64,000 bases of DNA. Source: Hericium rajendrae (taxonomy: Eukaryota > Basidiomycota > Agaricomycetes > Russulales > Hericiaceae). The notes below the pieces were generated by a model, which had not been told where the DNA came from, searched no databases, and saw only the letters and a program-made list of their open reading frames with translations. The first letter of the stretch is position 1, and the number at the start of each line of letters is the position of its first letter. The position numbers and the translations under genes were made by a program. Below, piece after piece: positions 2,943 to 63,444 of this stretch. The stretch spans positions 2,170,001 to 2,234,000 of the forward strand of contig CM065883.1 of assembly GCA_033439255.1 (NCBI GenBank), given 5' to 3'.

Positions 2943-3149
2943 TTTGCTGAGGCTCGAGCAACGAAGCTTCGCTCATTCGGTGGCTGAAGCACCAAGTTTA
3001 ACATGTCGAGACTTCACTCCTTTTTACCAGTCTCCCTTCTCCTCCTTCGTGTTTCCTCCTCCAGCCTCCTTCCTTCCATTTCTTTTGTTCTCTATCGGCT
3101 TTCAATACGGCTGGGATGGTTTTTTTAGCAGATACTTAGAGGGCCTTAG

Positions 3150-3195
3150 GTGAGTAAAAAAAAAAGCCTCTTATCATTTTTTCATATTAATCAAG
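3150..3195 (+). other. Conserved short intron, IHE copy A
   Basis: Starts GTGAGTAAAAAA, has a branch-like ATATTAAT, and ends CAAG directly before the stem-loop. At 46 nt it matches the introns of copies B, C, D and E (45-48 nt). Confidence 0.6.
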
Positions 3196-3227
3196 AGAGT
3201 GTCAATCGTTTTTCAAGCGACACTCTC
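3196..3227 (+). other. Stem-loop 1, IHE copy A
   Basis: AGAGTGTC and GACACTCT form the stem around an imperfect inner part. The hairpin begins at the first base after the predicted 3' splice site. Homologous hairpins sit at the same place in copies B-E. Confidence 0.65.
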
Positions 3228-3556
3228 GATATCTTTTATTCTGTTGATCCCACATCCCCGCGCTACCATCCTATGATTCTGTTGCCTTTTTTGCACTCTC
3301 ATCGCCCCTTCCTCGGCCTGTCTATGCCACATCTGTGCCCCGTGTGCAGCTCGTACACCCCATGCCTGACTCCAACAGGCTGCGACCCCTGCGCATGCCT
3401 CCGACCACCATCCTTTTCCACGTGCATCAGTGTGCACAAGGCCACAGCGTGCATGCATGCGTGTACCATGTGACGTCATCTGCGCGATGTCAACGACATG
3501 TGCGCACAGGCCACATCATCACCCATGCCCCACGTCCGTGCATGTGCATGTGCCAT

Positions 3557-3582
3557 AGTCCCATTGCCATGGCAATGGGACT
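3557..3582. other. Stem-loop 2, IHE copy A (26-bp perfect palindrome)
   Basis: Perfect palindrome centred on TTGCCATGGCAA, flanked by GGGACTCGGAC. The same GTTGCC-GGCAAC core recurs in copies B (19345) and D (34513), and in degenerate form in E. Confidence 0.65.
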
Positions 3583-4637
3583 CGGACATTGTTCATGCCT
3601 ATCAGCCATGACCCTGCACGCTTGCCTCAATCCCCGCAAGGCCTCATGCTCATGTTCAACACCGTGCAAGCTTGCAACATCCCATCTGTGTGCTCAAGCC
3701 CCCACACCCACTCACAATGCCCCGCACCTGCTCACAACACCCCAGACATGCACACCACGCCCAGTTGCGTGTATGCTCCTGCACCTGCTCAACTCAACAT
3801 GCCCCGCGTGTGTGCGCAATGACCTGCACAGGTGCATGACAACCACATGTGCATGACGTGCTGTACAGTGCCTCTTTGTGCATGCAGAATGTCCTGCATG
3901 CCTGCTCCAGGCCTCCCGCACATGCTCGACACCCACACGTGCCCGACATCCCCTGCACGTGCCCAGCTCTGCCTCCGCATGCGCACAGATGCCAGCGCAT
4001 GGTGGCACTGCAAGACCTCATCCCACAACAATGCACGCACAACACCCAGCATTTGCACTCAACATCACTTGCCTACAATGCCCTGCATGCGTGCATGCTC
4101 TCGCATGCCCACTCAACACCCCGCACCCTCCAGATGCTCTGCGTACATGTGCAACGTCCCACGTGCATGTACGCAACCTGCACGCATACATGGCAGCCCT
4201 GACCCCATTTGTGGGCATGGCCACCCACACGCAGCTACACATAGTCTGGCTTGCCATGCATGGACCATGTATGCTGTGCGCGGCCCATGCCTACTCCTGT
4301 GCCCTCCATGCTGGCATTCATGCATGCCACGCCACCTTTTGTGTGCACGTGCTGTCTTTTGTGTGCCTGCACTGTCTTTGCACCTGTGCCTGCACCCTCC
4401 ATGGTGACTTGCATGCCCTCCGCATCCTGTGCCTTATGCAATAGCTCGACTAGCTTACATATGTATGGTAGTAGATTTATTACAATTTAATATGATAAAT
4501 TCTGACTTGTAATATCTGGTGCTTATCTGACTTGTGGTAGTAATCATAGGCATCATAGTAGCCATAGCACACCTTGTTAATGATGATAACCCTATGTATA
4601 TCAGACTACAGGCTATGAAGGCTATGATAACCCTATG

Positions 4638-4848
4638 CATCAGGAACCCTTTCAGTCTTCTTAGTGACCTTGTTGGTCTGGTTTGGGTCTGGTGGATCTG
4701 GTTTTTGTCTGGTTTGTCTGGTTTTCATCTGAATTGATAGAAAACCAGACAAACCAGATGAAAACCAGACAAACCAGATGAAAACCAGATTCACCAGATC
4801 CAAACCAGACCAACAAGGTCACTAAGAAGACTGAAAGGGTTCCTGATG
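4638..4848. mobile_element. MITE M1 (211-bp palindromic element)
   Basis: Ends CATCAGGAACCC...GGGTTCCTGATG; the whole element is close to a palindrome built from TCTGGTTTGTCTGG-like units. A 2-bp target duplication TG flanks it (4636-4637, 4849-4850). Three more copies of the same 211-bp length, apparently identical or nearly so, occur in this window (M2, M3, M4), so amplification was recent. It carries no transposase. The ends are open in several frames only because of the repeat structure. Confidence 0.9.
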
Positions 4849-5052
4849 TGAATGTCACACTGTCTGCTATGTAGGCTATGATAGCTCTCATAGCTCTACA
4901 TAGCTGGATAAAGAAACTTCATAGCTCTGATAGCTCAATGATAGCACCTATAATGTAACCTGCAGCTATGTCAAATTCAAATTTCTCAGATGAAGATCTT
5001 GAAAGGAAGATCTCAATTTCAAATTTTGATTTTTGAATTCTAGATGGACTGA

Positions 5053-5470
5053 GGCCTATGTAGCATGGCTGGAAAGTGATTAATCAGTACATTTCAATGC
5101 AATTTAGAACAATTAAATTGGTGGAGAACTGCCAGACTTATCTCAAGGTCAAGATCTTGGGGGGGGGGGAGATCTCAGTTTCGAGTTTTGATTTTCGAGT
5201 TCTGGGCAGATTGGGGTCTATGTAGCATGTCTGGAAAGTGATTAATCAGTACATTCCAGCGCATTTTAGAACAATTAAATCGGTGGAGAACTGCCAGACT
5301 TACCTCAAGGTCAAGATCTTGGGGGGGAGATCTCAGTTTCGAGTTTTGATTTTCGAGTTCTGGGCAGATTGGGGTCTATGTAGCATGTCTGGAAAGCGAT
5401 TAATCAGTACTTTCCAGCCCAATTTAGAATGAGTGAATTGGTGAAGAACTGAGGGACTTACCTTAAGATC
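5053..5470. repeat. 158-bp tandem repeats, array 1 (about 2.6 units)
   Basis: Units start at GGCCTATGTAGCATG (5053), GGTCTATGTAGCATG (5215) and again at 5373. The first step is slightly longer because of a G run. Each unit has GAAAGTGATTAATCAGTAC, then AATTGGTGGAGAACTG, then AAGATCTTGGGG. The same unit plan, strongly diverged, appears at 6274-6850 and 46575-47000. Confidence 0.85.
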
Positions 5471-6022: not shown

Positions 6023-6041
6023 ATCGTCATGTGATCACCAC

Positions 6042-6112: not shown

Positions 6113-6273
6113 CACTGCTGCATTGAAGCTCATACTAAGACTGAATCTTTCAACAGTCATTAAATGATTTGATCACATAGTATATTGCTATATAGTATAT
6201 ATACTTATTGAGTATGCTCAATGTATACTAAAAATGATTGAGCAACATAGATCACAAAACCGAGTTTTTGTAT

Positions 6274-17899: not shown

Positions 17900-18591
17900 T
17901 ACATCTGAGAAAAGGACCAGTGATATGTGGCACTATATATCCTACATAGCTCTGATAGGGCCATAGGAGTCCTCTTTTCTACATAGCTCCTCCATAGTAG
18001 TGAAGTAATCTATATAGAGCTACCATAGCTATCATAGCTATCATAGTATAGAGTATGAGCTATCATAGCTATTATAGCTGCTATAGTATATAATGGCTAT
18101 CATGGCTATCATAGCTATGTCAGCTATGTGGTATATCTCTGTTATCATATCATGTCTAGCTAGTAAGACTACTATCTACTCTATATCACCTCTATCTTGT
18201 ATGGTGCTTAAGAGTGCTAAAAATATATTTAAATATTCAGATATATTATAAATCTCAATTTTGTTGCATTTAAAGCATTTAAAGCATCGAAAATTTAAAA
18301 GCATTATATTTGAAATATTAAACTACAATGCATTTAGTACAAAAGCTACAAGCATCACTATATATCTATAATACACTACAAAGACCAACACTTTAAGATA
18401 AGATAACACAATATACAAAGATAAGATAAGATTCAAAGATAAAAGATAGATATTAAAAGATAAGATAGAACTTACTTCATAAATAAGAAAAAGCGAAAAT
18501 AATCTAAAGGCAAAGTCAACAAATTAGTATACAAGACACAGATATAGAAAAACATAAGACTTACTTAAGATAATAAAAACGAAAATGTAGA

Positions 18592-18670
18592 AGTCTACAA
18601 AGAATAGTAGGGTTAATGAACAATAAAACAATATAACAACAACATGATAACTTACCGAACATGAGAGAGT
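18592..18670 (-). other. Minus-strand spliced unit, IHE copy B (5' end)
   Basis: Below the TATA box at 18751, a pyrimidine-rich leader leads to an ATG at 18662 followed after seven bases by a strong 5' splice site (GTAAGTTATC). A plausible acceptor (CTTTGTAG) lies near 18592. A further AAGTAAGT and a TTTCGCTTTTT exon follow downstream. Copy C has the same TTTCGCTTTTT exon and a GTAAGT site. This side encodes no long protein in B or C. Confidence 0.4.
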
Positions 18671-18750
18671 TGAGACAGGAGAAGAGAGAGCGACGAAAGA
18701 CGAGAGATGATAGTGGTAGGGAAGAGAGAGAGAAAGCGCGTCGCGCACGT

Positions 18751-18760
18751 CTTATATAGA
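18751..18760 (-). promoter_or_regulatory. TATA box for the minus-strand unit, IHE B
   Basis: TCTATATAAG on the minus strand, preceded on the plus strand by GCGCGTCGCGCACG. Copy C has TATATAAGG at the matching place (30240) with the same flanking GC-rich motif. It lies 46-53 bp from the shared TTGCCG block. Confidence 0.55.
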
Positions 18761-18803
18761 CGTGGCGATCGGAGCGTCAAATGTAGCCTGCCGAGACCGG
18801 GCC

Positions 18804-18985
18804 GGTCGTTGCCGGGCATCTCGTCAGAGGCTGGTTATTAGATTCCGTTAAGTAGATTGTGAAAGCAACGAGCATATTGCATAGTAAGTACACGAGTAGC
18901 TCATTCATTGTATTCTTATCGACTCGTTGTACCTTCTCACTTTTTTTGGGAGTTAATACGATTTTATTTGGTTTGTTAGAGTCGA
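18804..18985 (+). promoter_or_regulatory. Conserved divergent promoter-like block, IHE B
   Basis: GTTGCCGGGCATCTCGTCAGA at the left, and 158 bp further on TTTTATTTGGTTTGTTAGAG. The same two motifs are 155 bp apart in copy C (30286, 30441) and about 161 bp apart in block G (61549, 61710). The segment lies between diverging transcription signals. Confidence 0.6.
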
Positions 18986-19171
18986 ATCCGCGAGGCGCGG
19001 GAGCGGAGTGCTGTGGCTGAAGCACTCGTCGCGTCGACTTGTTACTCTTGCCCTTATCTCCCTTCCCCGGTCGTCTTCGTCTTCGTCTCTCTCGCTCTCT
19101 CCGTACCTCTCCGCACCCTCAAGATCTTCAATAAGTCGGGAGGGTCTGTCAGGTGTTCCGAGGACCAACAG

Positions 19172-19218
19172 GTAAGTAAAAAAAATCTTCTATTGTCTTC
19201 TCGTACTAACCACGCGAG
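19172..19218 (+). other. Conserved short intron, IHE copy B
   Basis: GTAAGTAAAAAAAATC start, perfect branch consensus TACTAAC at 19204, AG at 19217-19218 just inside stem-loop 1. About 47 nt. The best-preserved splice signals of the family. Confidence 0.7.
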
Positions 19219-19245
19219 TATCGCTCGTTCAACGAGCGATACTCG
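19215..19245 (+). other. Stem-loop 1, IHE copy B
   Basis: A 15-bp perfect stem (CGAGTATCGCTCGTT against its complement) with a single central base. The predicted 3' splice site falls at the foot of the stem. Confidence 0.85.
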
Positions 19246-19344
19246 TGTTTTCTCGCGACCGCGTACTACACCCCCTTCGCTTTCGACACCCCGAGCGTGG
19301 CCACCCCATCCCCCGATGACGCTGTCCGCGTCCGCGTCGTGTCT

Positions 19345-19360
19345 CGTTGCCGTGGCAACG
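19345..19360 (+). other. Stem-loop 2, IHE copy B
   Basis: CGTTGCC-GT-GGCAACG, followed by GGGCGCGAC. Matches the second palindrome of copies A and D. Confidence 0.65.
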
Positions 19361-20665
19361 GGGCGCGACGTCGTTCGGCCGGCCTCCTCCGCCCTCGCAT
19401 CCCACTCAACGACCCTCGCACGTCCTCAAAAGGTTCGTGCGTATCTCCGCCTCACCAGCCCCTCGCATTACCGGTCCCCCTGCCATGGACAACACGCTCG
19501 CGGCCATCTCTTCGACATCGCCGACCACCCCTGCCTCGTCAACAACGTGCTGGCGGTCACGGCACGTGGCTGTGCACGTTCGGCCATGCACGTCTGCGAG
19601 CGACCCTGCTGCGCGTGCTTGCCTTCACCATCCACGTCCACGCGAGTACGCGCACGGCCACGCATGAGCACAAGCCCGCGCGAGGTCCCGGCCGCGCGCG
19701 CACGCCCAGGACGGCGACCACGTCCGCGCCAACTCTCGCACACGACCGCGCGACCATATGAGTCGTCCGCACAAGCCGCGGCTACCACCATGCACGATGC
19801 GCAAGCCCGCACATGGCCCCAACTACGCACGTAGCCCATGCAACAATGCGCGACCCCGCGAGCTTGCGCACGGCCACGCACGGCCAACACATCGGTGGGC
19901 AAGCCCAGCACGGCGTGCGCAAGGGCATGCCAGCGCGACAGCACGCGCCTACCCGCGCACGGCGGTGCACATGTCCCAGACGGCATGCGGCAACGTCAAT
20001 GCGTGCTTGCCCTCGCACGCCGTCGCACGCTCGACAGCGCGCCCTCACCCACGCACTGTCACGAGAGTGCGCGCCTGCCCGTCCACACCCTCATATTCCT
20101 TGGATGGCGCGGGCCTGCGCGCAGTCTCCGACAGTGCACGCATGGCCCCGCGAGTGCGTGCGTATACCCTCCGACGCCTACATCGGCTGTCCGCCCCGCG
20201 CCGGTCCCGACATGTCCCCCGCGCCTGTGCGGCGATCATAATGTGCCTTTGCTGCACCATTGCCATGTCGTTGCTGTGCGGGATGCGAAGTCCATTCCGG
20301 GCCTTCATTTACTAAGTAGTTTAGTGTTAGATTTTGTAGTATCATTGCTTGTAGTAGTTTACAATTGAATATCAGAAGATTTTGACCTGATGTCTTGATT
20401 GCCTAGGTGACTTACCATAAGGCCTGTAGTAACCATAGTAGCCATAGTTCCTCTTAGTAATTATCATAGTCCTATGTATATGACACCCCTAGCTATAGAG
20501 GCTATGACATCCTATATATTTAACACTTGATGCTATAGAGGCTATCATAGGCCCCATAGCTCCACATAGCTGAACAGTCCAAGTTCATAGCTCCCATAGC
20601 TCACTGATAGGGCCCATAATAGGACTTGCTGCTATATAAAAAACACATTTCTCAGATGTATATAG

Positions 20666-30630: not shown

Positions 30631-30675
30631 GTGAGTAAAACAAAAGTCTTAATTCATCTATTCATACTAATCTAG
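30631..30675 (+). other. Conserved short intron, IHE copy C
   Basis: GTGAGTAAAACAAAAG start, TACTAAT branch-like site, CTAG end, 45 nt, directly followed by stem-loop 1. Confidence 0.65.
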
Positions 30676-30707
30676 AGAGTATCGCTCGTCGAACGAGTGA
30701 TACTCTC
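30675..30707 (+). other. Stem-loop 1, IHE copy C
   Basis: GAGAGTATC and GATACTCTC form the outer stem; CTCGTCGAACGAG closes it with one wobble-type change. Confidence 0.8.
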
Positions 30708-31129
30708 GATTTACTCCCCCCTCGTGGCCCACTCCCTTCCCTTCGCCTCCCGCCGCCGTCTCCCCCCCATCGGCCCACCCCCCGACATCGCCGTCATGTC
30801 CGCAGGGCTTGGCGCGCCGTCTCCAACGACCACGACCGTGCGCTGGCGCATGCACATCGCATGGATGACACGTACGCGAGTCCGCCGCTTCGTCCACGGG
30901 CTCTGCCCTTCCCGCATGGCCCCGTCGTCCTGTCTACGGCGCTGCTGCCTGACCCGTGCACCAGGCACGCTCTGCGCAGCCTCCCTGTCTTGACTCTCGC
31001 GAACGGGCCCGCCCTGCCGTGCTGCGTGCAGCCCCAGCTGCATGTGTGCAGCCCCGCTAGCACACACGAGGCCCCGCCAGCGCACACACGGCCAGCGGAT
31101 GGCCACAGCCGTGCGGGGATGCCAGCACA

Positions 31130-31340
31130 CATCAGGAACCCTTTCAGTCTTCTTAGTGACCTTGTTGGTCTGGTTTGGGTCTGGTGGATCTGGTTTTTGT
31201 CTGGTTTGTCTGGTTTTCATCTGAATTGATAGAAAACCAGACAAACCAGATGAAAACCAGACAAACCAGATGAAAACCAGATTCACCAGATCCAAACCAG
31301 ACCAACAAGGTCACTAAGAAGACTGAAAGGGTTCCTGATG
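31130..31340. mobile_element. MITE M2 (211-bp palindromic element)
   Basis: Same element as M1, apparently identical, inserted in the CpG-rich part of IHE copy C. Target duplication CA (31128-31129, 31341-31342). Confidence 0.9.
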
Positions 31341-34351: not shown

Positions 34352-34399
34352 GTGAGTAATTACAATACCCATTTTTTGTCTTCGTGCTAATAAAACGAG
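34352..34399 (+). other. Conserved short intron, IHE copy D
   Basis: GTGAGTAATTACAATACCC start, TGCTAAT branch-like site, ends ACGAG at the base of stem-loop 1; 48 nt. Confidence 0.65.
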
Positions 34400-34428
34400 T
34401 ATCACTTGTTTGCAACGAGCGATACTCG
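34396..34428 (+). other. Stem-loop 1, IHE copy D
   Basis: CGAGTATC and GATACTCG form the stem; the inner part pairs CACTTGTT with AACGAGC imperfectly. Confidence 0.75.
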
Positions 34429-34505
34429 TATCATTTCACAACCGGCCCACAAGCCCACCCCACCCCACGCCACTCCCTCGATGACGCCGTCGACGACGCC
34501 GACGT

Positions 34506-39031: not shown

Positions 39032-39054
39032 AGTGCCCCCCAGTCACGTCGTCT

Positions 39055-40618: not shown

Positions 40619-41255
40619 CTTGGGGGAAGAGGGCCAATGCTGTGCATGGCAAAACGATTCATTTTTATTATTATTAATGAAGGTATATAAATTATCTCAC
40701 ACATAGATCAGACACACCATGCCCTGCCTCTGATGTCTTATGCATGGGCTCAGATGCTACACATGCTAGCATATGTATGGCTGATAAATGGTCATAGCTA
40801 TGCACAAGCACATCAGTTAGCACACCTGTGTAGGCATGTCATGTACCTGTACCTCATGCCTTATACTTGGCATGTAGCATTGTGCTAGGGCCAGTGCCTC
40901 GTGCATGCCTGCTACACCTCATGCCAGCCCACTGTGCTTCATGTTCACTGGCCACACCCTATGCTGGTTCACCACATCTCGATGTACCTTGTGGATGGGC
41001 CAGTGACAGCTCAGAGATGGCTACAGCTGAATGTGAGCATGTCAGTCAGCACAACCATATACACACATTGTGTGTTGCCATGTGCAGGTGTGTCACTTGC
41101 CTGTACCTTTGTTGAGATTGGGGCAAATGCCCATTACCAAAGCACACTAAGTGTGATTTTCATCTTATCTCGTTCCTTACCTTTAGATTAGATGTTTCAG
41201 GCCTGAAGCCCAGATTGATTATGTACACTACTGTACAGTTGCTTTCAGCCCCTCG
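40619..41255 (+). repeat. Repeat block R, copy ii
   Basis: CpG-poor, CATG- and TGCA-rich sequence, nearly the same as 2310-2942 (inverted) and 54399-54770. Contains GAAGGTATATAAATTA, a TATA-like element near its start. Confidence 0.75.
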
Positions 41256-47100: not shown

Positions 47101-47164
47101 TCGTTTGCATGTCGTTTTCACTATGAAAAGGCGGTATAGAGTAAACGATTCTAAGGAATTGTAA

Positions 47165-49268
47165 TTTTCACCGAAACCCTCGAAGAACATCGCGACCTTG
47201 TGCGCAAGGTCCTCCAACGCCTCCAGGACAATGACCTCTTCCTCAAACCAGAGAAGTGCTCGTTCGAGCAGCCCTCAGTTGAGTTCCTCGGTCTCATCAT
47301 CTCCCATAACATGCTCGCCATGGACCCCGTCAAGGTTGCAGGCATTGCTGAATGGCCTGCCCCTCGTAACGTCAAGGACGTCCAGTCCTTTGTTGGCTTT
47401 GGCAACTTCTATCGACGCTTTATCCAGGACTTCTCCAAAGTCGCTCATCCCATGTTTGACCTTACCAAGAAAGACCATCCTTGGGCCTGGTCTGCTGAAT
47501 GTCAACATGCCTTTGAAGCTCTTAAAGCTGCGTTCACCTCGTCCCCAGTCCTTATCATGCCTGACCCATCCAAACCCTACCTGGTTGAGGTCAATGCCTC
47601 AGACTATGCCACAGGAGGTATCCTATCCCAGCACGGGGAGGACAAGCAATGGCACCCTGTTGCTTACATCTCCAAAGCCTTCACCGCCCCTGAACGCAAC
47701 TACGACATCTATGACAAGGAACTCCTGGCCATCATCCGCGCCCTCGAAGCCTGGCGCCATTACCTGGAAGGTTCTCCCCATACTGTGGAGATCTGGACCG
47801 ACCATAAGAACCTGGAATACTTCAAGTCTGCCCAAAAGCTGAGTCGTCGTCAAGCTCACTGGGCTCTCTTCCTCACTCGTTTCGACTTCACCCTGATCCA
47901 CAAACCCGGTATTCATCACTGGCCAGATGCCATGTCGAGACGACCTGACCATAGAGAGGGGGTGGATGACGACAACTCCGATCGTGTCCTCCTCGACCCC
48001 AAGTACTTCCAGATCCGTGCTACACGTCCAGCTGCTGTCAAGTCCATTGGCAATGCTGATCTTCGCCAATGCATTCGCAATGCCAAGACCAAGGACATTG
48101 AGGTTGTTCAAGCCCTTGATGTGATCCTGAACAATGGTCCTCGCTCCCTCGTCAAGAACCTCCAAGAATGGAACTACGAGGATGGCCTCATCCTCTTTCG
48201 TGGCAAGGTCTACATCCCTGCTGACAAGGACCTTCGTCGGGACATCGTCAAGCTGCATCATGACACCCCCATGGCTGGTCACCCAGGATGCTACAAGACC
48301 TATGAGCTCCTCAGTCGCAACTACTGGTGGCCCGGTATGTCTGTCTTCGTTCGTGATTATGTTGATGGCTGTGCTACCTGCCAGGCCACCAAGGTTCAAA
48401 ATCACCACCCTCATGTTGAAACAATTCCCAATGCCATCCCTACCCGTCCCTTCCAAGACATTACCTCGGACTTCATCGTCAAACTCCCAGAATGCCAAGG
48501 CTATGACTCCATCAATGTGGTCGTCGACCGATTTACAAAGCACGTCTCCTTCACTCCTTGTAAAGAGACCATTACCAGTGATGGCACAGTCGACATCCTT
48601 TTTGACAGGATTTATCGGAACTATGGCCTCTGGGAACGCCTCATCTCTGATCGTGGCCCACAGTACGCAGGCAAAGTCATGCGTGGCGTCTTTGACAAAC
48701 TTGGTATCAAGTCCTCCCTCAGCACCGCCTATCATCCACAGACCGACGGCGAGTCAGAACGCGTCAATCAAGAACTCGAGCAGTTCCTTCGTACCTTCTG
48801 CAACTACCGTCAGGATGATTGGGTCCAATGGCTCCCTTACGCTGAGTTCTCGCACAACCACCGTATCCACAGCGCCACTAACCAAGCTCCATTTGAAATG
48901 CTCCTTGGCTATATTCCCACTGCCATCCCCACTGTCAACCCCACATCGTCTACACCCGCTGTCGAGGATCGTTTCCGTCACCTCGAACAACTTCGCACTG
49001 AGGTCCAGGCCAGCCTTCAAACAGCTGCTGATCTCATGAAGCGCAACAACCAGGACCATATGCACGACACCATCCACTTCCAGGTTGGTGACAAGGTCTG
49101 GCTCGATGGCAAGAACATCAAAACCACGCGACCCAAAGCTAAGCTTGCTGATCGACGCCTGGGACCTTTCGAAATCACTGATGTCCTGGGCCCAGTCTCT
49201 TATCAACTGAAGCTACCGCCCACCTGGCGTATCCACCCGGTGTTCCACACGTCCCTGTTGTCCCCTTA
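47165..49268 (+). mobile_element. Ty3 pol, second part (RT end, RNase H, integrase)
   Basis: One long open stretch. RT thumb/connection (FLGLIISHNMLAMDPVKV, FVGFGNFYRRFI), RNase H (PYLVEVNASDYATGGILSQ, NYDIYDKELLAII, WTDHKNLEYF), integrase zinc finger (HHDTPMAGHPGCYKT...CATCQATK), catalytic core (DFIVKLPECQGYDSINVVVD, LISDRGPQYAG, HPQTDGESERVNQELEQ) and the integrase C-terminal region (VGDKVWLDGKNIKT, LGPFEITDVLGPVSYQLKLP, HPVFHTSLLSPY). Residue order matches Tf1/sushi-type chromoviruses. Confidence 0.93.
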
Positions 49269-49490
49269 CATCAGGAACCCTACAAACTTTCTGCTGTGTC
49301 TGATGTATCTGATTGTATCTGATTGTTCTTATAAATCTGAAATCTTACAAGTTATTTCTGATTATTTCTGACAGATGACACCCGTCTTAGGTGTCTGACT
49401 ACCTGATGAATCTGAATGTTGCTACCAGTTTCTCCAGATTTCAATCAGATTTTATAAGATTTTATAAGACAGTTTGTAGGGTTCCTGATG
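49269..49490. mobile_element. MITE M5 (222 bp, CATCAGGAACCC ends)
   Basis: CATCAGGAACCCTACAAA...TTTGTAGGGTTCCTGATG, target duplication TA (49267-49268, 49491-49492). The ends are those of M1-M4; the interior differs (TGTATCTGATTG, GATTTTATAAGATTTTATAA). Inserted between integrase and chromodomain. Confidence 0.88.
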
Positions 49491-50250: not shown

Positions 50251-51861
50251 CCTGTCCTTTAACAATGTCTACTGTACATTCATCATTGACGGGCCCGTTC
50301 TCCACTGTCTAATGGGTCATCGGCTGGTCCACTTGATTCTACAGGTTGTCAATTGCTCGGCCCATCCTCTACTGTCCAATGAGATGTTATTAAATCTCAT
50401 GGAATCCTGCCAGACTCTATCTTAGATGTTTTCAGATCTCATGTGATCCCACGGGATTCTGTTTTAGACATTTTCAGATCCTATGAGATCCTGTGGGATT
50501 CTATCTTAGACATTTTTGAATCCCATGAAATTCCACAGGATTCTGTTTTAGACATTTTTGGATCCCATGGAATCCTGCAGGATTCTGTTTTAGACATTTT
50601 TGGAAATCCCACGGGATTCTCTTTTGACATTTTTGGATCCCATGGGATCCCATGGGATTTTGTTTTAGACATTTTCAGGGATCCTGTGGGATTCTGTCTT
50701 AGACATTTTCTGACTGCATGAAATCCCACAGGATTTTGTTTTAGACATTTTTAAAGATTCTGCGAGATTCTGTTTTGGATGTTTTTGGATCCCATGGGAT
50801 CCCATAGGATTTTGTTTTAGACATTTTTAGGGATCCTGTGGGATTCTGTCTTAGACATTTTCTGACTACATAAAATCTCGTGGGATTCAGTTTTAGACAG
50901 TTTTGGAAGATCCTGTGGGATTCTCTTTTGGACATTTTTGGATCCCATGAGATCCCATGGGATTTTGTTTTAGACATTTTTAGAGATCCCGCAGGAATTT
51001 GTCTTAGACATTTTCTGACTGCATGAAATCCTGCGGGATTCAGTTTTAGACATTTTCAGAGATTTTGCGGAATTCTGTCTTAGTAGACATTTTCTAACCA
51101 CATGAAATCCCACGAGATTCTGTCTTAGACATTTTTTGACTGCATAAAATCCTGCGGGATTCAGTTTTAGACATTTTTGGAGATCCCGTGGGATTCTGTC
51201 TTAGTAGACATTTTCTAACCACATAAAATCCCACAGAATTCTGTTTTAGACATTTTCAGACTACATAAAATCCTACAAGATTATGTTTTAGATGTTTTCA
51301 GATTCATAGGATCTTGTAGGACTCTATGTTAGATATTTTTTGTATTTTATAAAATCTTGTCTTAGATGCTTTTGGATTTCATGAGATCAAGTCTTGTAGG
51401 ATTTTGTCTTAGATACTTTTGAAATTTATAAGGTTTCACCTGAGTTACCATGATATTTTGCAAAATGCTGATTTAGTGTCATCTCATGAGATCCAATGGT
51501 AATTTATCAATTTGGCAATTATCCAAGAATCTCAAGCTATGCTCAGATCTGACATCCAAATTGTTCTATAAGCAATTATGCCAAGTTTAATACTTAACTA
51601 TACAATATATCTATATACATTTGCTTCATTTTGTGAGCTGAATTCAAATGTAACACTTTTTTACTTATATTAACTGCCAAATATGAAAATGTGTGCTTAA
51701 ACAACTATATGCACTCTTTGATAGATGATTTCTTAAAATCAATTTGAATATAACATGCATTAAGTTATATAAGGACTGGTTGAGGTCATGATACACATAT
51801 TATACTTAATAATTGTACAAATCAGTATATTGCAGTTTTTTATGGTTCAATTGGAGAATAT
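50251..51861. repeat. Left arm of giant inverted repeat (inner part)
   Basis: Together with 36040-36180 it is the inverted copy of 52651-54398: about 1.75 kb with apparently one single-base length difference. The outer 130 bp is the GGCTGGCC-type tandem DNA. 50400-51420 is a degenerate 35-50-bp tandem repeat of GGGATTCTGTTTTAGACATT plus GGATCCCATGGGATCC; 51430-51861 is AT-rich. Long frames in it are translation artefacts of the repeat. Confidence 0.9.
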
Positions 51862-52650
51862 GTTTAGCAATATATTGGATTAGATGCAGGTTTTTTAGGA
51901 CCTTTCATATAGTAACATTTTTATATTAATTGGATCAGAACTAACTGAGATATTTACAAATTTTTGTTTTATACAAAGCATTTTATCCAGTATTTTGCAG
52001 TTTGCAAGTGAGCCAGGACAGCTATGACAGTCAGACCACTTGTTTACTACTCAGATGACATTGTACTACACTTCAAGACACATATCACTATTTTTACATA
52101 TCACTTGTTACTTTGCTATTCTGGTATCTCAGATTGAATTTCTAGATAAATATATCTGAGATAGGCAAAGATGACCGTTTTTCTGACTCACTGACAATGG
52201 TCTGATTTGCATAAGTCAGACTACTTTCAGATGAGTCAGACCACTGTCAATGAGTCAGAAAAATGACCATGTTTGCTAATGTAAGAAGCAAAAGTCTATA
52301 GAACAGAATTCTACAGAATTCCATAAGATCCAAAAGTATCTAAGATGAGATTTCACAAGATTATCCAAAACAGAATCCTGTAATATCCCATGATAGGATC
52401 TGAAAGTGTCTAAAACAACATCTCATATAATTTGATCCTATGAAATTTAAAAGCATCTAAGACAAGATTTTATGGGATCCAAAAATGTCTAAGACAGAGT
52501 CTGTGAGATTTCATGTGATCTGAAAATATCTAAGACAGAATCTTATGGGATCTAAAAATGTCTAAAACAGAATCTTGCAAGATCCTATGGGATCTGAAAA
52601 CATCTAAAACAGAATTCTGCAAAATTTCATGTGGTCAAAAAATGTCTAAG
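51862..52650. repeat. Spacer of the giant inverted repeat
   Basis: About 790 bp. The first part is AT-rich and unique, with a local inverted pair around 52180-52265 (GACTCACTGACAATGGTCTGA against its complement). The last 350 bp consist of the same AATGTCTAAAACAGAATC units as the arms. Confidence 0.75.
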
Positions 52651-54398
52651 ATATTCTCCAATTGAACCATAAAAAACTGCAATATACTGATTTGTACAAT
52701 TATTAAGTATAATATGTGTATCATGACCTCAACCAGTCCTTATATAACTTAATGCATGTTATATTCAAATTGATTTTAAGAAATCATCTATCAAAGAGTG
52801 CATATAGTTGTTTAAGCACACATTTTCATATTTGGCAGTTAATATAAGTAAAAAAGTGTTACATTTGAATTCAGCTCACAAAATGAAGCAAATGTATATA
52901 GATATATTGTATAGTTAAGTATTAAACTTGGCATAATTGCTTATAGAACAATTTGGATGTCAGATCTGAGCATAGCTTGAGATTCTTGGATAATTGCCAA
53001 ATTGATAAATTACCATTGGATCTCATGAGATGACACTAAATCAGCATTTTGCAAAATATCATGGTAACTCAGGTGAAACCTTATAAATTTCAAAAGTATC
53101 TAAGACAAAATCCTACAAGACTTGATCTCATGAAATCCAAAAGCATCTAAGACAAGATTTTATAAAATACAAAAAATATCTAACATAGAGTCCTACAAGA
53201 TCCTATGAATCTGAAAACATCTAAAACATAATCTTGTAGGATTTTATGTAGTCTGAAAATGTCTAAAACAGAATTCTGTGGGATTTTATGTGGTTAGAAA
53301 ATGTCTACTAAGACAGAATCCCACGGGATCTCCAAAAATGTCTAAAACTGAATCCCGCAGGATTTTATGCAGTCAAAAAATGTCTAAGACAGAATCTCGT
53401 GGGATTTCATGTGGTTAGAAAATGTCTACTAAGACAGAATTCCGCAAAATCTCTGAAAATGTCTAAAACTGAATCCCGCAGGATTTCATGCAGTCAGAAA
53501 ATGTCTAAGACAAATTCCTGCGGGATCTCTAAAAATGTCTAAAACAAAATCCCATGGGATCTCATGGGATCCAAAAATGTCCAAAAGAGAATCCCACAGG
53601 ATCTTCCAAAACTGTCTAAAACTGAATCCCACGAGATTTTATGTAGTCAGAAAATGTCTAAGACAGAATCCCACAGGATCCCTAAAAATGTCTAAAACAA
53701 AATCCTATGGGATCCCATGGGATCCAAAAACATCCAAAACAGAATCTCGCAGAATCTTTAAAAATGTCTAAAACAAAATCCTGTGGGATTTCATGCAGTC
53801 AGAAAATGTCTAAGACAGAATCCCACAGGATCCCTGAAAATGTCTAAAACAAAATCCCATGGGATCCCATGGGATCCAAAAATGTCCAAAAGAGAATCCC
53901 GTGGGATTTCCAAAAATGTCTAAAACAGAATCCTGCAGGATTCCATGGGATCCAAAAATGTCTAAAACAGAATCCTGTGGAATTTCATGGGATTCAAAAA
54001 TGTCTAAGATAGAATCCCACAGGATCTCATAGGATCTGAAAATGTCTAAAACAGAATCCCGTGGGATCACATGAGATCTGAAAACATCTAAGATAGAGTC
54101 TGGCAGGATTCCATGAGATCTAATAACATCTCATTGGACAGTAGAGGATGGGCCGAGCAATTGACAACCTGTAGAATCAAGTGGACCAGCCGATGACCCA
54201 TTAGACAGTGGAGAACGGGCCCGTCAATGATGAATGTACAGTAGACATTGTTAAAGGACAGGCCAGCCAATGACCCATTGGATGTCAGAGGACGGGCCAG
54301 TCAATGATGAATATGCAGTGGTATTGTAAGAGGATGGGCCAGCCAATGACCCAATGACCAGTAGAAATTGTAAGAGGACAGGCCTGTCAATGATCCAA
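52651..54398. repeat. Right arm of giant inverted repeat
   Basis: Inverted copy of the left arm. It preserves the Ty3 insertion site without the Ty3 element (about 54263) and is bounded at 54398/54399 by repeat block R, which entered between A and T. Confidence 0.9.
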
Positions 54399-55098: not shown

Positions 55099-58000
55099 CT
55101 CCCTCTCAGACCTCCACTAAGCCTAAATGATCAGAGAAAAGATTATGCTTAGCTTTAGAAAGCCCTTTTGTAAATATATCTGCAGTATTCTCAGCTGTAG
55201 GAATGTACTTGAGCCAGATCTGTCCACGGTCAACATGTTCACGAATAAAATGATACTTAATGTCGACGTGCTTCGTCCTCACATGGAAAACCTGTTCCTT
55301 TGACATGGCCATGCTCACCTGATTATCGCAATGGATGAGGGTGGGAGAATTTTGGGGAAAATCGAGCTTGCCAAGTAAGCTACGCAGCCAAAGAGCCTCC
55401 TTTGTGGCATGCGCAATGGCAAGGTACTTGGTGACTGCTGTCGAGTCTGCCACGGTGGGTTGCTTCTTCGAGCTCCAAGAGATTGGGGTGCCAGAGAGGA
55501 AGAAGGCATATCCTGAGATTGAGCGACGGCTGTCAAGATCATTTGTGTGATCAGCATCAGCATATCCAATGGGAACCCACGGGCCATCGTCTCCCCCATA
55601 CACCAGAGCCAGATCCAATGTGCCCTTCACATATGCAGTACTCACTTTGCTGCAGCATAATGAGCAATACCTGGGTTCGAGATGAACTGGGATAAGCGCT
55701 GGATGGCATACGATAGATCGGGGCAAGTAGCTATCGTGGCATACATCAGCGCACCTACAATTGATGCGCAGTCCTTGTCATGCATCTCCTTGACCTCCTC
55801 TGGGGTCTGTGGGCACTGCGACTTTGACAGCTGGGTGTTCGGGTCGAATGGAGTAGCCACTGGCTTGCAGTCTGCCATCTGGAATCGGTCCAGGACTGTC
55901 TGCAAGTAGTGAGCCTGTGAAAGGGTCACTGTCCCTTTCTCCCGATCACACGAGACGGTCATCCCAAGCATCATCTGTGGCTCCCCCAACTCAACAACCT
56001 GGAAGGGCATGTGGCACAGCTGCTCCTTCAATCTCTCCATCTCTGCCTTGGTGCTCGCAGCCAGTAACATGTTGTCAACGTGGATCACCACTATCGAGTG
56101 GCCATCCTTGAACACATGATAATACATGCACGGGTCAGAGTTAGACTGCTTGAAGCCAATATTGAGGAGCTCACCATCGAGGACTTTGTTCCAAACATGG
56201 CCTGACTGCTTGAGCCCATAGATAGATTTCAGAAGGTGGAGAACGAGGTCGATTTCATCAGGGGAAATGAAGCCTTCGGGTTGGCACATGAAGATCTCCT
56301 TGTCAAGAGTGCCATTGAGATAAGCAGATTTGACGTCGACCTGTTCGAAGAGCCATCCGAAATGGATGACGAGAGCAAAAATGAGACAGAAAGATTTGAA
56401 GCAGGCAACGGGTGAATGGGTCTCGTTGAAATCGACACCCGGTCGCTGCGAGAAGCCTTGAGTGACAAGGCATGCCTGATAATGTACAGGATTTCCGTCA
56501 GCGTTGTGTTTGACCTTGTAGGTCCAGCGAGACCCAATGGCTTTGCATCCTGCGGGGAGTCTCACTTTCTCCCAGGTACCGGTTTTCAGCAGCATGTCGT
56601 ATTCCTCCTGCATTGCTGCCTCCCACTTCATTCGATCGGGGCCCCTCACCGCTTCATGATATGTCTTCAGCTCAGCACCTATAGTGAGCGCCGCAATCTC
56701 GTACGTGATCGCGCTCGTTGGTGGGTCACCGTCTTCGTCTTCCTTGCACTCGCTCTCACCACTCTCTCCTTCCACTATCCTCTCGACTTCACCCTCACTC
56801 TCCTCCACCTCCTCTATCCTCGCCGTAATCTCCTCTCCCCCTTCACATGCTGCTGCGACCTGTTTGTGCTCAGCTCGCTTCGCTTCGCATGTGAGTTTAA
56901 CTGTGCAATTGCCGGCGTGCTTCGCAGCTTCGACTTCATTTGCCACCTCCGCGTGTAGCTTGAGGTTGCTTGGAGCAGTGTCATGCGAACTTCGGCAAGT
57001 GGGTGGAGGTGGAGGTGGGCACAGTGCTCAGGCCTTAGCAGCAGGTAAGTGCTTGTCCTTTTGCTGCTCTGCTGACTCTTTTGCTCCCCCAGGCATGTTT
57101 TTTGCATTACCACTCCCTCCACCTTCGGTTTTCGCACCCTCGCTGGCTTGTCCACTGCTGCTCACTTGTGCGGCACTCCCGGCACCTGGCGTGCCTCCCG
57201 CGCTCACTCGCGCTGCTCCCCTGCCTGCTGGTGCTGCTCCCCCGCTCCCCTTCGCGCCCTGGCCGATCGTCCCTGGCACCGCTCCTGCAGGCATGCCAGT
57301 GTTTGTTGTCAGTTGTGGAGCAGGTGGGGCTGCGGGCTTCTGTGGTGCCATGGCGACAGGCAGCGTCGATGCGGGCAGCGTGTTGTCGATCTCGATTGCG
57401 ACATTCTCGGTGTGCTTAGGTGTGAGCGGGAAGTCATTCTCGAAGAACTCGACATTGCGCGATTTGATAATATGGTGCGTTGGGCCGTGCCATAGGTGGT
57501 ATGCCAAGTCCTCATTATAGCCAATAAGTATGCACTGGACTGACTTCGCGTCCCATTTTGTGCACTTTTGCTTAGGGATTAGCCCAAAGGCTTTGCAACC
57601 GAAAGCGCAGAGGTGACGTATGCTCAGCTTATAGCCATGCCAGACCTCAAAAGGGGTCTTGCCGTTGAGTGCTGCAGTAGGTCCCAAGTTCTTCAAATAG
57701 ACCTGCGTGCTGACAACTTCTGGCCACAGGAAACACGGGAGTCCGGTCTGGTGTATGACTGCAATACCGCGCTCAATGATAGTGCGATTTAGGTGCTCCG
57801 CAACACTGTTCTGCATGGGTGAGTACAGTGCTGTCAGCTCGAGGATGATACCTGCTTCGGCGAGGTACTTCTCCATCTCTTTACTGACATATTCTCCCCC
57901 ATTGTCAGTGCACAGCCATCTAATTGAACAGCTGGTTTGCTTCTCCACCAGTGCGCGGTACATCTTGAATTGGCTAAAGACATCACCCTTGTGCCGCATT

Positions 58001-59759
58001 CGGTACTCGTGCAAATATCATGATGCATCGTCTGTGAAGGTGACGAAATAGCACGATCCATCGTGCACTAGGGTCTTCATCGGGCCGCAGACATCTGTGT
58101 GGACACGCTCGAGGACCTTGTCTGCATGGTGATCAGCTTGCTTTGGGAACGGCTTCCTGTGCTGCTTCCCAAAGATGCAGTCCTCGCATGGTGGTGCTGG
58201 TGCCTTCGACACCAAGGTAAGCCCATCGACTATGTTCTTCGATATTAACTGATCAATATTCATAACTCCAGCATGGCCGTAGCGATGGTGCCAGAGTTCA
58301 CATGTGAGTGGGATCGTGGCGAAAGCAGCTTCGCGGGGTCGGGCTTTGGGTCTGGGGACTGACGGAGAGTCTAGGTAGTAGAGGTTTTCCCGTAGCATGC
58401 CCATCGCTATGATGTTGTGACGAGAATCAAACAGCTTGACCTGCCCGTCTCTGAATTGTGCACCCCTGCCTGTGCAATCAAGTTTGCTAATGCTAAGCAG
58501 GTTGTGTGTGGCCTCTGGAGCGTGCAGTACATTGGACAACAACACGGTGCCCGTGCCTCCACTTCCAGTGACTGTGTCAACATGAATAGAGCCTATACCT
58601 GGGCTGATGAGGTCTTTGCCTTTTGACACAGTCCCGATTGAGCGCTCTTCGGGCTTGTACTCTTTGAACAAGGCACGTTCAGAATTGACGTGTGATGACA
58701 TACCCGTGTCGATGATCCATGGGTCACCAGCTAGGAGAGATTGCTCAGGAGATCGGGCCACCGAAAAAGTAAGGAGCGACGTCTCACGATTGCCGTCTGC
58801 TATATTGGCAGAGTTCTTGTCCCTAGAATGACCACGACTATCGCTTTAATGACGATCACCTAATACCTGCGGGCAATCGAACTTGTAATGGCCCAGCTTG
58901 TGGTACTCAAAGCATTCCACCTCCGAGCTCAGCCGCATGGATCTGCAACAGTTGCCTCTGTCACTGTTCTTGCTGCCATGTGATGTGCTGTCCTCTCGCC
59001 TCTCTCTTCTGATGCCTCGACTGCTGCCTCGCTTATCGTGCCAATGGCCCTTGCCCTGTGCGCCACTGGCTTGGAGTGCGACATCACCGCTCGGACTCGC
59101 TTCGCATTCTTCGTGAGCCTTGCGCCAGTTGTATGCATCCAATAAGCACTGCATGAGCTTGGCAGAGGTGATCTTTGATGTGTCCTCGATCGAGTCGACA
59201 ACGGTCTCGTAGTTGCCATTCAGGGAGAAAAGGATGTGATCAACGAACATGGGGTCCATCAGCAAGACACTGACATTGACGGCATTGAAGTAGTATGTGC
59301 GGAGAGTGGATAGATGGGTAGCGAGGTCATCGGTGGGGGCCATCATGAGGCTGTAGAACTTGGTGGTGATGAGGGACTTGCTTGTCGTGGTCTTCGACTC
59401 GAACTGGTTGCAAACGGCAGTCCAGACCTCAGTAGACGTGTCGGCATTGAGCATGAGATTCATCTCCTCATCGGTGATATTGAGGATGATCTGGGAGAAG
59501 GCCTTCACATCCTTCTGCTCCCATGACGTAGCTGCTACTGAATCCAATGGCTTCATCTCAGTACCCTTAGCAACATCCCAGACGCCCTGAGCATGCAAGA
59601 TCGTCTGGATCTTCTTCTTTTAGATCCCGAAGTTGTCACTGCTGAGCTTTGAGTCAAGCATGATGATAGATTTGGTGACATCAGCCATAATGGAATGGAT
59701 GGGGATGAGCTAGATCAGATGTAGTAATCTGGGCCGGCGAGCGTTCTTTCTTCGGGTCT

Positions 59760-59783
59760 CAGTATCCCGCAGGGCCCATATTC
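59760..59783 (-). other. Primer binding site of the copia element
   Basis: Minus strand ATATGGGCCCTGCGGG directly after the 5' LTR; the ATGGGCCC core is the half-tRNA primer site known from Drosophila copia and relatives. Confidence 0.55.
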
Positions 59784-60039
59784 TGTTACGGAATGAACTC
59801 AGCGCAGGAAGAGAAAACACTACATTAGTATATCTACCTGTTACGGAATGAACTAAGGTAGTGAATGAGCTAAATAGAATGGGAACGAGACATGAAAGAT
59901 ACTCACCTCAGCGCAGAAAGAGAAAATGCTGAGGTGCTACAGACATGCAGTACGGGCAAGTACAGTATGGTTCGGGAAAGTCCAAAAAGGGAAAACATGC
60001 TATACAAGTGGCAGTCTGACTACAGTACTACTCTCAACA
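59784..60039 (-). repeat. 5' LTR of the copia element
   Basis: 256 bp, on plus TGTTACGGAATG...CTCTCAACA. All differences from the other LTR that I count are transitions. Confidence 0.92.
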
Positions 60040-60206
60040 AGATATCTGTGACATCACAGATCACCTGCAGGTCAATTGGTCTTGAAGTTGTGTCTCACTT
60101 TTATGATGTCCTCCTCTTTGTTTCTTCATCTTAATCCTCCCCTTTTCACCATATCTCCTCAATTCAATGGCAGGATGGGTGTTATGGAGATTCAAGAGGC
60201 TTCTAG

Positions 60207-60251
60207 GTGAGTCCAAAAGCCTTTTATTTCATTGTACTGTACTGATCTCAG
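60207..60251 (+). other. Conserved short intron, IHE copy E
   Basis: GTGAGTCCAAAAGCC start, TACTGAT branch-like site, CTCAG end, 45 nt, directly followed by stem-loop 1. Confidence 0.6.
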
Positions 60252-60279
60252 GAGTCTTGCTCGATAACAAGTGAGGCTC
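60252..60279 (+). other. Stem-loop 1, IHE copy E (degenerate)
   Basis: GAGTCTTGCTCG paired with a complementary but transition-altered arm ending GAGGCTC. Confidence 0.55.
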
Positions 60280-60544
60280 TCATTTTTCACTGTTCTTCGA
60301 CAGGTTTCATGATGTTTGACGGGTTTCACAACATCCCACCATTTTTTGACATCATCCACCATATCTCGTGCACCATCTGCACTTCTCCTATCATTCTCAT
60401 CAACAGGTCAACCAGCCAATCAGCCCTCACCCATCTTTGACAACCAGCACTCATGTGCACCAGAGATTTAATTTCCACTCACAACGATAAGAGCATGCAC
60501 AGTGCCAGTCTAATGCTGCAACTGCAAGGCCCACAATGCCTGTC

Positions 60545-60590
60545 AAGTCTTGTTGTTACAGCATTGTTGCTACAACAGCAAGGCTCGACA
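60545..60590 (+). other. Stem-loop 2, IHE copy E (degenerate)
   Basis: GTCTTGTTGTTACAGC and TTGCTACAACAGCAAGGCTC retain the palindromic plan; ends with GCTCGAC as in copies A, B and D. Confidence 0.45.
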
Positions 60591-60989
60591 TCTTTTTGCT
60601 GATCATCTGAGCAGTGCCTAGCATACCTTGACAATGCGCCACACAATACAGTGACTTTGGCCGCAACCTACGGGCCAGACAAAAGTGGCCTAAGGCCGTA
60701 AGTTACGGGCTGGTCAAACCCAGCTGGAATGAGGGTTTTTGGTCCGTAAGCTACGGGCCAGCTGGATCTGGGAATAGACCATAAGTTACGGGTCAGCTTA
60801 TATAGATGTGTACCATAGGTTACGGTGGAGCTGGCAGAGGGTATCTCTTGGGTGCCGGACTAATGGAATTAAATCAGAACCGGACTACTTTTTCTAGCTT
60901 CGGACTGCTTTTTTAGGGCTCGGACTAGTGGTTGAAAATTGAACTGGATTACATAAGATAACACAGGACTACGGACTATAGAAGATTAT

Positions 60990-61170
60990 GGAATAGGACT
61001 ATCAGACAGGACTTCGGACTTGTATTGAATAAGACTTCGGACTATTCCACAGGACTTCGGACTACTCTATAGGACTTCGGACTACTCCATAGGACTTCGG
61101 ACTACTCCATAGAACTTCGGACTACTTAATAAAACTTCGGACTACTTAATAGGACTTTGGACTACTTAAT
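60990..61170. repeat. About 20-bp tandem array (left arm)
   Basis: At least seven units of the GGACTTCGGACTACT type; mirrored at about 62325-62500 in the right arm. Confidence 0.85.
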
Positions 61171-61548
61171 AAAACTTCGAACTCTGAACTAGACTAAGGA
61201 CTCTGGACTCTGGACTTCAGATTGAGAACTTCAGATTAAGAATTATAAAATAGGACTATAGACAACAGACTTTGGACTAGGACTTAAAACTCCGGAACAT
61301 GACTCCGGACTCTAGACTACTACAGATCAAAGACTTCGGACTCCAGACTCCAGACTCCGGACTTCGGACCTCGGACCTCGGACTATAGCCTTGAGACTTC
61401 AGACTAAAGTCTAAATAATAGAATGAAACTAAGGATTATAAGCTAGCATTCTTGAGAGCTTGTTTAAAGTAGTGGCACAGTAATCCATTTGATGTGATAT
61501 AGCTGCAACACAGTGACTATACTCAGTGGAGTTACAATATTAGATGTC

Positions 61549-61825
61549 GGTGATTGCCGAGCACTACATCAGAGGCTAATTTTTAGACTTTACTAACTTA
61601 TATCTGCCATCTCATATACTATAGGTTCTTAAATATAAATCTGTTGCATTTTATAATATTATATGAGTTGAAAGTATATGCTGTTATTTTTGCTAATTTT
61701 ATAGTATTTGATTTGATTTGTTATGACTCAAATACCGAGAATCTAGATATGGGTCTTGTGGCTGTACAACTAAAGACGCGTCAACTTGAAAGTTTGATTG
61801 TTACTAGCTACTATTGTTTTGTCCT
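61549..61825 (+). promoter_or_regulatory. IHE-like promoter block G inside the inverted-arm element
   Basis: GATTGCCGAGCACTACATCAG, TTAGACTTTACTAA, then 161 bp from the first motif TTGATTTGATTTGTTATGAC, CTTGTGGCTGTACAAC and a pyrimidine-rich leader. Same motif order and spacing as copies B and C. The intron and stem-loops are absent. Confidence 0.5.
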
Positions 61826-63444
61826 GCTCTTTTTCTTTGTCCTATAATAATTTAATTCAAAACTCAAGTAGCCTTTTTTATATACAAATTAGTCTGTTGA
61901 ATAATTTTAGAATATATATTTATAGTTCTTAGTTCTATCTTATAGTCCATAGTCTGATCATAGATCTTATAGTCCTTAGGCTAATTTTCTGATTCTAAAT
62001 CTGTCTTTGTAGTCCTTAGTTCTATTTTATAGTCCTTTGTTTTATTTTGTAGTCCTTAATTTGATTTTATCATTAGATTAGTCCTGATGCTTATTTTATG
62101 GTTCAGTCTGAAGTTCGAAGGCTATAGTCCAAGGTCCGAGGTCCAAAGTCCGGAGTCCGGAGTCCGAAGTCTTTGATCTGTAGTAGTCTAGAGTCCGGAG
62201 TCATGTTCCGGAGTTTTAAGTCCTAGTCCAAAGTCTGTTGTCTATAGTCCTATTTTATAATTCTTAATCTGAAGTTCTCAATCTGAAGTCCAGAGTCCAG
62301 AGTCCTTAGTCTAGTTCAGAGTTCGAAGTTTTATTAAGTAGTCCAAAGTCCTATTAAGTAGTCCGAAGTTTTATTAAGTAGTCCGAAGTTCTATGGAGTA
62401 GTCCGAAGTCCTATGGAGTAGTCCGAAGTCCTATAGAGTAGTCTGAAGTCCTGTGGAATAGTCCGAAGTCTTATTCAATACAAGTCCGAAGTCCTGTCTG
62501 ATAGTCCTATTCCATAATCTTCTATAGTCCGTAGTCCTGTGTTATCTTATGTAATCCAGTTCAATTTTCAACCACTAGTCCGAGCCCTAAAAAAGCAGTC
62601 CGAAGCTAGAAAAAGTAGTCCGGTTCTGATTTAATTCCATTAGTCCGGCACCCAAGAGATACCCCCTGCCAGCTCCACCGTAACCTATGGTACACATCTA
62701 TATAAGCTGACCCGTAACTTATGGTCTATTCCCAGATCCAGCTGGCCCGTAGCTTACGGACCAAAAACCCTCATTCCAGCTGGGTTTGACCAGCCCGTAA
62801 CTTACGGCCTTAGGCCACTTTTGTCTGGCCCGTAGGTTGCGGCCAAAGTCACACCATTGACTGAATGCGCAGTTGTCCGCAAACAGCTTTGCATATCCTT
62901 GCATGTCTGAGACAGTGCACATCTACCAATACATGCCCTGCCAGCATACACATTTTTGACTGCATGCTTCCACCATCCTATAGTCCATTGCTCAAACTAC
63001 ATGTGTACATTCGTGCCCATGGACATCACACACGCCACTATGCATGCTGTTATATCATTCGTCTGGCAGAAGCCCAATGTGAGGCAAGTTTTATATGCCA
63101 TATTCAACAATCAAAATGCATCCTCTCTGGTCTCATTCCCATTTTCCATCCAAGCTGGTGATGTCATTTGTGTGCACATGCCCACAGCTATGCCAGTACA
63201 CCAGCACCCACACATGCTCCCCTTGCATATGTGCCAGCCCATGTGCACACACATACTCAAAGCTGTCCCACTGGCATGTGCACGCCCATGTCGATGCCAC
63301 AAGTATGTCGCATACAGCCTTTTGAATCTATGCCTTGCTTGTAGACTTCATACACTTCATGGGTATAGCGAGATATAGTGATAATGGGCATATGTGATTG
63401 GGGCTGTAAGTTAGTGTTGGCAGATGGCATATAGTATGTAGTTA

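Follow-up and report, generated by a model that had tools for sequence, protein, structure and literature searches.

Transposons of the PlavakaB type (CMCT/CACTA-like) have CATCA..TGATG ends and target duplications of 2 or 3 bp, as described in excerpts of a published account (PMC12730594). Splicing that ends after step one has been reported for the telomerase RNA of S. pombe, in which full complementarity of the branch site to U2, combined with a large distance from branch to acceptor, triggers step-one-only processing (excerpts of PMC4299874). Stems that lie between branch point and acceptor in Saccharomyces introns hide cryptic acceptors and have been proposed to reduce the effective distance (excerpts of PMC12350175), and introners and introner-like elements are mobile DNA with spliceosomal signals (PMC9860276 and PMC4457414). 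In this study, we investigated a module consisting of a splice donor, a branch site and a hairpin in the basidiomycete Hericium rajendrae. Five copies (A to E) lie in a 64,000-nucleotide stretch (assembly GCA_033439255.1, contig CM065883.1, positions 2,170,001 to 2,234,000 of the forward strand), hereafter the window. The scanned assembly comprised 46.8 Mb in 19 contigs, and all genome-wide counts below refer to it. All five copies that the original prediction had located are present on the + strand, each with a GTRAGT donor, a branch-like site and a hairpin (Table 1). These copies are real, but their description as five copies of one element was too narrow, as the module forms a genome-wide set with several subfamilies and backbones.

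Anatomy and covariation of the donor-branch-hairpin module

The genome was scanned with two patterns. Pattern 1, made up of the donor, the branch site and the 5' hairpin arm, gave 219 matches (110 + 109). Pattern 2, which required the branch site and both arms and did not require a donor, gave 265 (140 + 125), some of them second readings of one site. No match was obtained with either pattern reversed as a control. A GTRAGT donor was found at the right distance in 36 of the 39 listed GAGTATC-type sites on contigs C1-C2 for which no donor had been required, where about 1% would be expected by chance. Typing of pattern-2 matches by GAGT[N]TC/GA[N]ACTC yielded 95 rows among the 100 matches listed out of 265 counted. 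A second scan, in which A was barred at both positions of the variable pair, yielded 82 rows, with at least one site read on both strands.

The branch site lies ~35 nt after the donor and is consensus-like. It reads TACTAAY or TGCTAAY in 37 of the 44 sequences of alignment A1, many of which were gathered by a pattern requiring a branch site. The spacer between TAAY and GAGT was 5 or 3 in 94 of the 95 typed rows among the matches listed (5 in 78, 3 in 16) and in 77 of the 82 second-scan rows (5 in 35, 3 in 42). Two outer pairs preceding GAGT form in 43 and 42 of the 44 A1 rows, so that the stem there begins ~3 bases after TAAY. The only spacer-3 locus that was read (L089) has no such outer pairs, and its stem likewise begins 3 bases after TAAY.

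The anatomy of the module bears a signature of selection. Both hairpin patterns demand near-complementary arms at positions other than the variable pair. At the variable pair, A-U occurred in 70, C-G in 12 and G-C in 13 of the 95 typed rows, with no mispair among the matches listed; in the second scan the same pair was C-G in 34, G-C in 47 and G.U in 1 of 82. Inner pairs also changed together in the second scan, from G-C to A-U in 4 of 82 rows and from C-G to U-A in 2 of 82 at each of two pairs. Nearly all A1 rows had been collected by a regular expression for the donor, the branch site and the 5' arm, which makes the 3' arm the independent part of the stem test. Standard pairs filled 97.7% of the cells of the 14-pair stem in A1; L058 has lost its 3' arm, and L029 has a shortened stem. 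The A1 covariation score was 0.182, compared to 0.116 ± 0.007 in shuffles, and 22 cells were double-changed, compared to 9.1; none of 500 shuffles reached either value. The co-variation of both arms, first proposed from five copies, is thus borne out much more strongly by 95 typed and 82 further rows. The A1 stem also contains 37 G.U-type against 10 A.C-type cells, which points to a folded RNA of this strand; since the copies are related, this excess indicates a trend and does not amount to a test. The spacing between the arms (the loop) ranges from 2 to 9 bases in typed rows.

The flanks of the module were also compared. The stretch from -100 to -61 upstream is pyrimidine-rich (82% C+T), and the presumed exon ends in a purine-rich motif, GGAGGG..GAGGG..CAG, loosely common to several types (22 sequences; mean column identity 55%). 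Both features look as expected for a promoter followed by a short first exon. A second GTAAGT lies ~45 nt upstream of the donor in the L033-L054 group, where the presumed first exon may itself hold a mini-intron. One 3.2 kb locus carries a second strong module copy in opposite orientation (L028:139-243). The body 3' of the module is C-rich and differs between subfamilies. We considered whether this body is coding; the printed pairs had no clear codon phase and most gaps were not multiples of three, so that the long open frames look like a product of composition. Judged from the sequence, the element body looks non-coding.

Acceptor position and loss of AG downstream of the hairpin

According to the original prediction, the AG at the base of the stem serves as the acceptor. 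This AG is not conserved as an acceptor, and most rows have no YAG there. Between TAAY and the end of GAG, the 95 typed rows among the matches listed comprised 26 with YAG, 33 with only AAG and 36 with only GAG, and the 82 second-scan rows comprised 32, 15 and 35, respectively. The stem-base AG follows the branch A by ~5-9 nt and either lies within the stem or abuts it.

AG is depleted 3' of the hairpin. In 48 rows representing 45 distinct places (window copy B is also L009), the observed/expected ratio of AG was 0.17 in the first 60 nt (weighted 4.0 vs 22.9 expected), 0.66 in the next 60 nt, 0.49-0.63 at 120-400 nt and 0.82 at 400-500 nt. CT, the complement of AG, remained at 0.80-0.98 across the same bins (0.80 in the first 60 nt), and GA reached 1.33 in the first 60 nt. 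The position of the first AG was then compared to shuffled sequences with one representative for each of 19 clusters (subfamilies). All 19 representatives had it beyond the shuffled median, 12 of them at P < 0.05 (Fisher ~2e-13); in two further loci it stood at 195 nt (P 0.0008) and 108 nt (P 0.014). The distance from the hairpin to the first AG ranged from 22 nt (copy E) to 464 nt (L040); measured from the 3' arm, it was at 122 nt in copy A and 98 nt in copy C. No acceptor common to all was seen in the three groups that were aligned.

Carrier elements and the window copies

Loci with the module and ~1.5 kb flanks numbered 58, or 56 distinct places (L012 and L047 are the same, as are L019 and L034). 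Element ends were searched as 11-bp facing pairs with CATCT or CATCA ends. Such a pair encloses the module in 29 of the 58 loci, corresponding to 28 of the 56 distinct places (21 CATCT, 7 CATCA). The 11-bp ends read CATCTGAGAAA, CATCAGGGAAA and similar, the elements measure 2577-2939 bp, and the donor lies 1190-1358 bp from the left end of these 2.6-2.9 kb elements. Identical 2-bp flanks were found in 26 of the 29 loci (25 of 28 distinct places), with a chance of 1 in 16 each; six A-type loci share AA flanks and may be copies of one insertion. The original prediction had recognized no described fungal transposon with this layout. Since half of the distinct loci have CATC-type ends that resemble those of PlavakaB, and 25 of these also show 2-bp duplications, the layout cannot be called entirely that of an unknown type of transposon. 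The module itself is not described in the published titles and abstract openings consulted on Plavaka, non-autonomous transposons with a hairpin and a splice donor, spliceosomal cleavage and transposons, and introners.

None of the 132 Plavaka (PF18759) matches in the genome lies inside the 28 elements, and such matches begin <1 kb outside two of them (L006, L026). The elements therefore look non-autonomous, and their assignment to PlavakaB rests on the ends only. An autonomous partner was not found: 22 facing CATCAGGGAAA pairs, of which 21 measure 2.6-3.0 kb and the last 5.9 kb, enclose no Plavaka match. Genome-wide there are also 172 KDZ domain matches, and many of the Plavaka and KDZ matches have internal stop codons.

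The module is also present on other backbones. Nine loci (L033, L035, L039, L040, L045, L050, L051, L053, L054) have no CATC-type pair within 1.5 kb. The second backbone, as read in L040 and L053, has ~20-bp repeats and is G-rich before and C-rich after the module. Among the pairs listed, it often aligns with B- and C-type copies only between about -78 and 0, counted from the hairpin end, a span that begins near the donor; in some pairs the alignment extends beyond this. L077 has a third backbone, next to a KDZ gene; it shares the altered hairpin pair of copy E, and its first-exon end resembles that of B-type copies. KDZ elements were considered as carriers and rejected, with the module in one of 30 KDZ loci (L077) and only chance-level matches in two others. 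The L077 module stands in an apparently separate element that ends where KDZ homology starts.

The features of the five window copies are given in Table 1. Their scores against the module model were 100 (B), 94 (C), 81 (A), 80 (D) and 60 bits (E), values that are not independent, since the five copies are rows of the model's own alignment. Two further B copies have different flanks, GT/GT and AC/AC (L010 and L011). Copy D aligns with its kin only from ~34122 to the right end. Copy E has no match of at least 60 nt to any locus compared across 59620-61000, and matches only within the module model. Directly downstream of it lies an inverted repeat (98%; 60644-61376 and 62127-62859) with 20-nt units, which recall the 20-bp repeats of the second backbone.

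Table 1. Coordinates of the module copies and associated features in the window
Feature	Position	Strand	Details
Copy A module	3150..3227	+	GTGAGT donor 3150; TAAT 3188-3191; hairpin ~3195-3227; GAGTGTC/GACACTC type
Copy A remnant	2943..4992	+	Left part cut at 2943; nested 212-nt repeat 4637-4848; right inverted end 4992
Copy B whole element, 2757 bp	17902..20658	+	CATCTGAGAAA..TTTCTCAGATG inverted ends; TA both sides
Copy B presumed first exon, last part	19124..19171	+	GGGAGGG..GAGG..CAG motif after pyrimidine-rich stretch; loosely common to other subfamilies
Copy B module	19172..19246	+	GTAAGT donor 19172-19177; branch-like TAAC 19207-19210; hairpin ~19214-19246
Copy B AG-free stretch 3' of hairpin	19245..19293	+	No AG
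Copy C module	30631..30707	+	GTGAGT donor; TAAT 30668-30671; hairpin 30675-30707; element left inverted end 29280
Copy D module	34352..34429	+	GTGAGT donor; TAAT 34388-34391; hairpin ~34395-34429; right inverted end 35759
Copy E module	60207..60280	+	GTGAGT donor; TGAT 60243-60246; imperfect hairpin ~60251-60280

Other features of the window were also recorded. The 212-nt repeat nested in copy A recurs (4637-4848, 31129-31340, 37854-38065 and 63444-63655); three copies are identical, the fourth is inverted, and the repeat is ~89% self-complementary. A large inverted repeat at 50251-54262, with arm pairs of 1243 and 376 nt at 100% and ~42-nt units, is unlinked to the module. Coding pieces at 37979-40677, 47155-49371 and 55106-59619, named from their translations, presumably belong to Gypsy- and Copia-like retrotransposons; of the three, only 47155-49371 has this label backed by Pfam domains of homologues. 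Protein relatives mark the DNA as fungal; the best named hit of one retrotransposon protein in the window is from Dentipellis fragilis (78%), which hints at Agaricomycetes, perhaps Russulales, without being proof. The window had no Rfam match at the gathering threshold.

A candidate step-one splicing signal, its rivals and known systems

Tentatively, and at somewhat less than even confidence, we favor the reading that the module is the promoter-proximal front of a spliceosomal intron on non-autonomous mobile elements, which allows step one of splicing and delays or blocks step two. The element would be transcribed, and the splicing signals suggest that the spliceosome would assemble on the donor and branch site and could carry out step one. 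The stem beside the branch site and the low frequency of AG suggest that step two may be delayed or blocked, since the closest AGs are placed within or next to the stem and the others are held at a distance. Processing would then probably yield a free 5' exon plus a long-tailed lariat, or distant acceptors would be used slowly. The original prediction had proposed a structured transcript whose splicing depends on the hairpin. Its general idea agrees with the covariation, the narrow spacing between branch site and stem, the excess of G.U-type over A.C-type cells and the downstream loss of AG on that strand; in most copies, however, the acceptor that it placed at the base of the stem is not borne out.

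Several observations, however, weigh against the step-one reading. In A1, neither the number of pairs with double change (3; 221 of 500 shuffles as high) nor the number of pair types (15; 94 of 500 as high) was above shuffles, and inner-pair mispairs occur: A.C in 3 of 95 and 5 of 82 rows at one pair, C.A in 3 of 95 and 3 of 82 at another and in 6 of 82 at a third. The first 60 nt 3' of the hairpin are also poor in GG (0.31), AA (0.53) and TA (0.54), so that composition may account for part of the AG loss, and P was 0.05 or more in 7 of the 19 subfamilies. Copies D and E have an early AG, at 24 and 22 nt, that of E being a good-looking ACAG followed by G, and some rows do have YAG at the stem base. 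No Sm-like site was seen by eye before the donor. The step-one reading also does not explain what a transposon would gain from the module.

The main rival is efficient splicing to a distal acceptor. The module would then open an ordinary long 5' intron, in which the hairpin hides the near AGs and shortens the path to the distal acceptor and splicing is completed; we consider this doubtful, though a real possibility. Stems between branch point and acceptor exist in yeast introns (excerpts of PMC12350175), and CAACAG at about +211 in 8 of 11 aligned B-type copies, a further point against the step-one reading, could be a real distal acceptor. In contrast, the first AG of any kind varies over the 22-464 nt given above, the aligned groups share no visible acceptor, and the stem begins only a few bases after TAAY. 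A simple intron with its acceptor at the hairpin base, as originally proposed, would suit the rows with YAG there, but those with only GAG do not fit it; the short distance of this AG from the branch A and its place in or against a conserved stem also argue against it, and the AG loss further downstream would be left unexplained. We give this version little credence.

The module may instead be a relic, that is, a promoter and first intron from an autonomous ancestor kept by copying and not by selection. The non-coding look of the bodies, the lack of a Plavaka match in the 28 elements and the constant position of the module at 1190-1358 bp from the left end would agree with this. Module listings on contigs C1-C6 combined the GAGTATC type from pattern 1 and pattern 2 (the latter to C5) with other types from the second scan. 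By these listings, with places compared by eye, a strict-pattern module lies in one of eight facing CATCAGGGAAA pairs, a count that also tells against the step-one reading, and the remaining seven enclose none; such elements can do without the module or hold variants that the patterns miss. A relic is nevertheless unlikely, as compensatory stem changes and narrow spacing survive where the surroundings no longer align. Least plausible of all is a palindrome that works as DNA, as a site for a dimeric protein: across types the arm sequences are very similar, but the spacing of the arms varies from 2 to 9 bases, G.U-type variants outnumber A.C-type ones, and a donor and a branch site on one strand go together with the palindrome.

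A bolder form of the step-one reading, which we regard as rather unlikely, is that the module acts as a transposon-borne signal for a single spliceosomal cut, so that hundreds of loci would release a short capped RNA together with a long, lariat-ended non-coding RNA. The module would then be kept, or exchanged among unrelated backbones, because it is helpful, for example by sustaining transcription or steering silencing. If true, telomerase RNA would be joined by another RNA class that the spliceosome cuts instead of splicing, one that offers hundreds of natural variants, and a DNA transposon would be exploiting host splicing in a new manner. Stalled spliceosomes are reportedly linked to RNAi in Cryptococcus, and the module may thus bear on transposon sensing in basidiomycetes. 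Even if splicing is completed, a strongly covarying intron hairpin near the branch site provides a natural series for studying acceptor choice.

Among known systems, PlavakaB transposons, as excerpted, have inverted ends that resemble the CATC-type ends of the module elements, and they share target duplications of 2 bp with them; the module elements differ in their length of 2.6-2.9 kb, the lack of a Plavaka match, the CATCT ends that 21 of the 28 distinct elements have, and the donor-branch-hairpin module, of which the excerpts of PMC12730594 make no mention. The telomerase RNA of S. pombe, as described in its excerpted source, resembles the module in its strong donor and branch site and, possibly, in its distant acceptors and disfavored step two. 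Unlike that RNA, the module has no Sm-like site that was seen, exists in hundreds of repeated copies and carries a covarying hairpin right after the branch site. Introners carry splice sites at their ends, whereas the donor of the module lies ~1.2-1.4 kb inside the element, so that the element ends do not supply splice sites. The stems of Saccharomyces introns, by their excerpted description, likewise follow the branch point and are able to hide AGs; the stem of the module differs from them in being conserved in sequence, held at a narrow spacing and located in repeated or mobile DNA.

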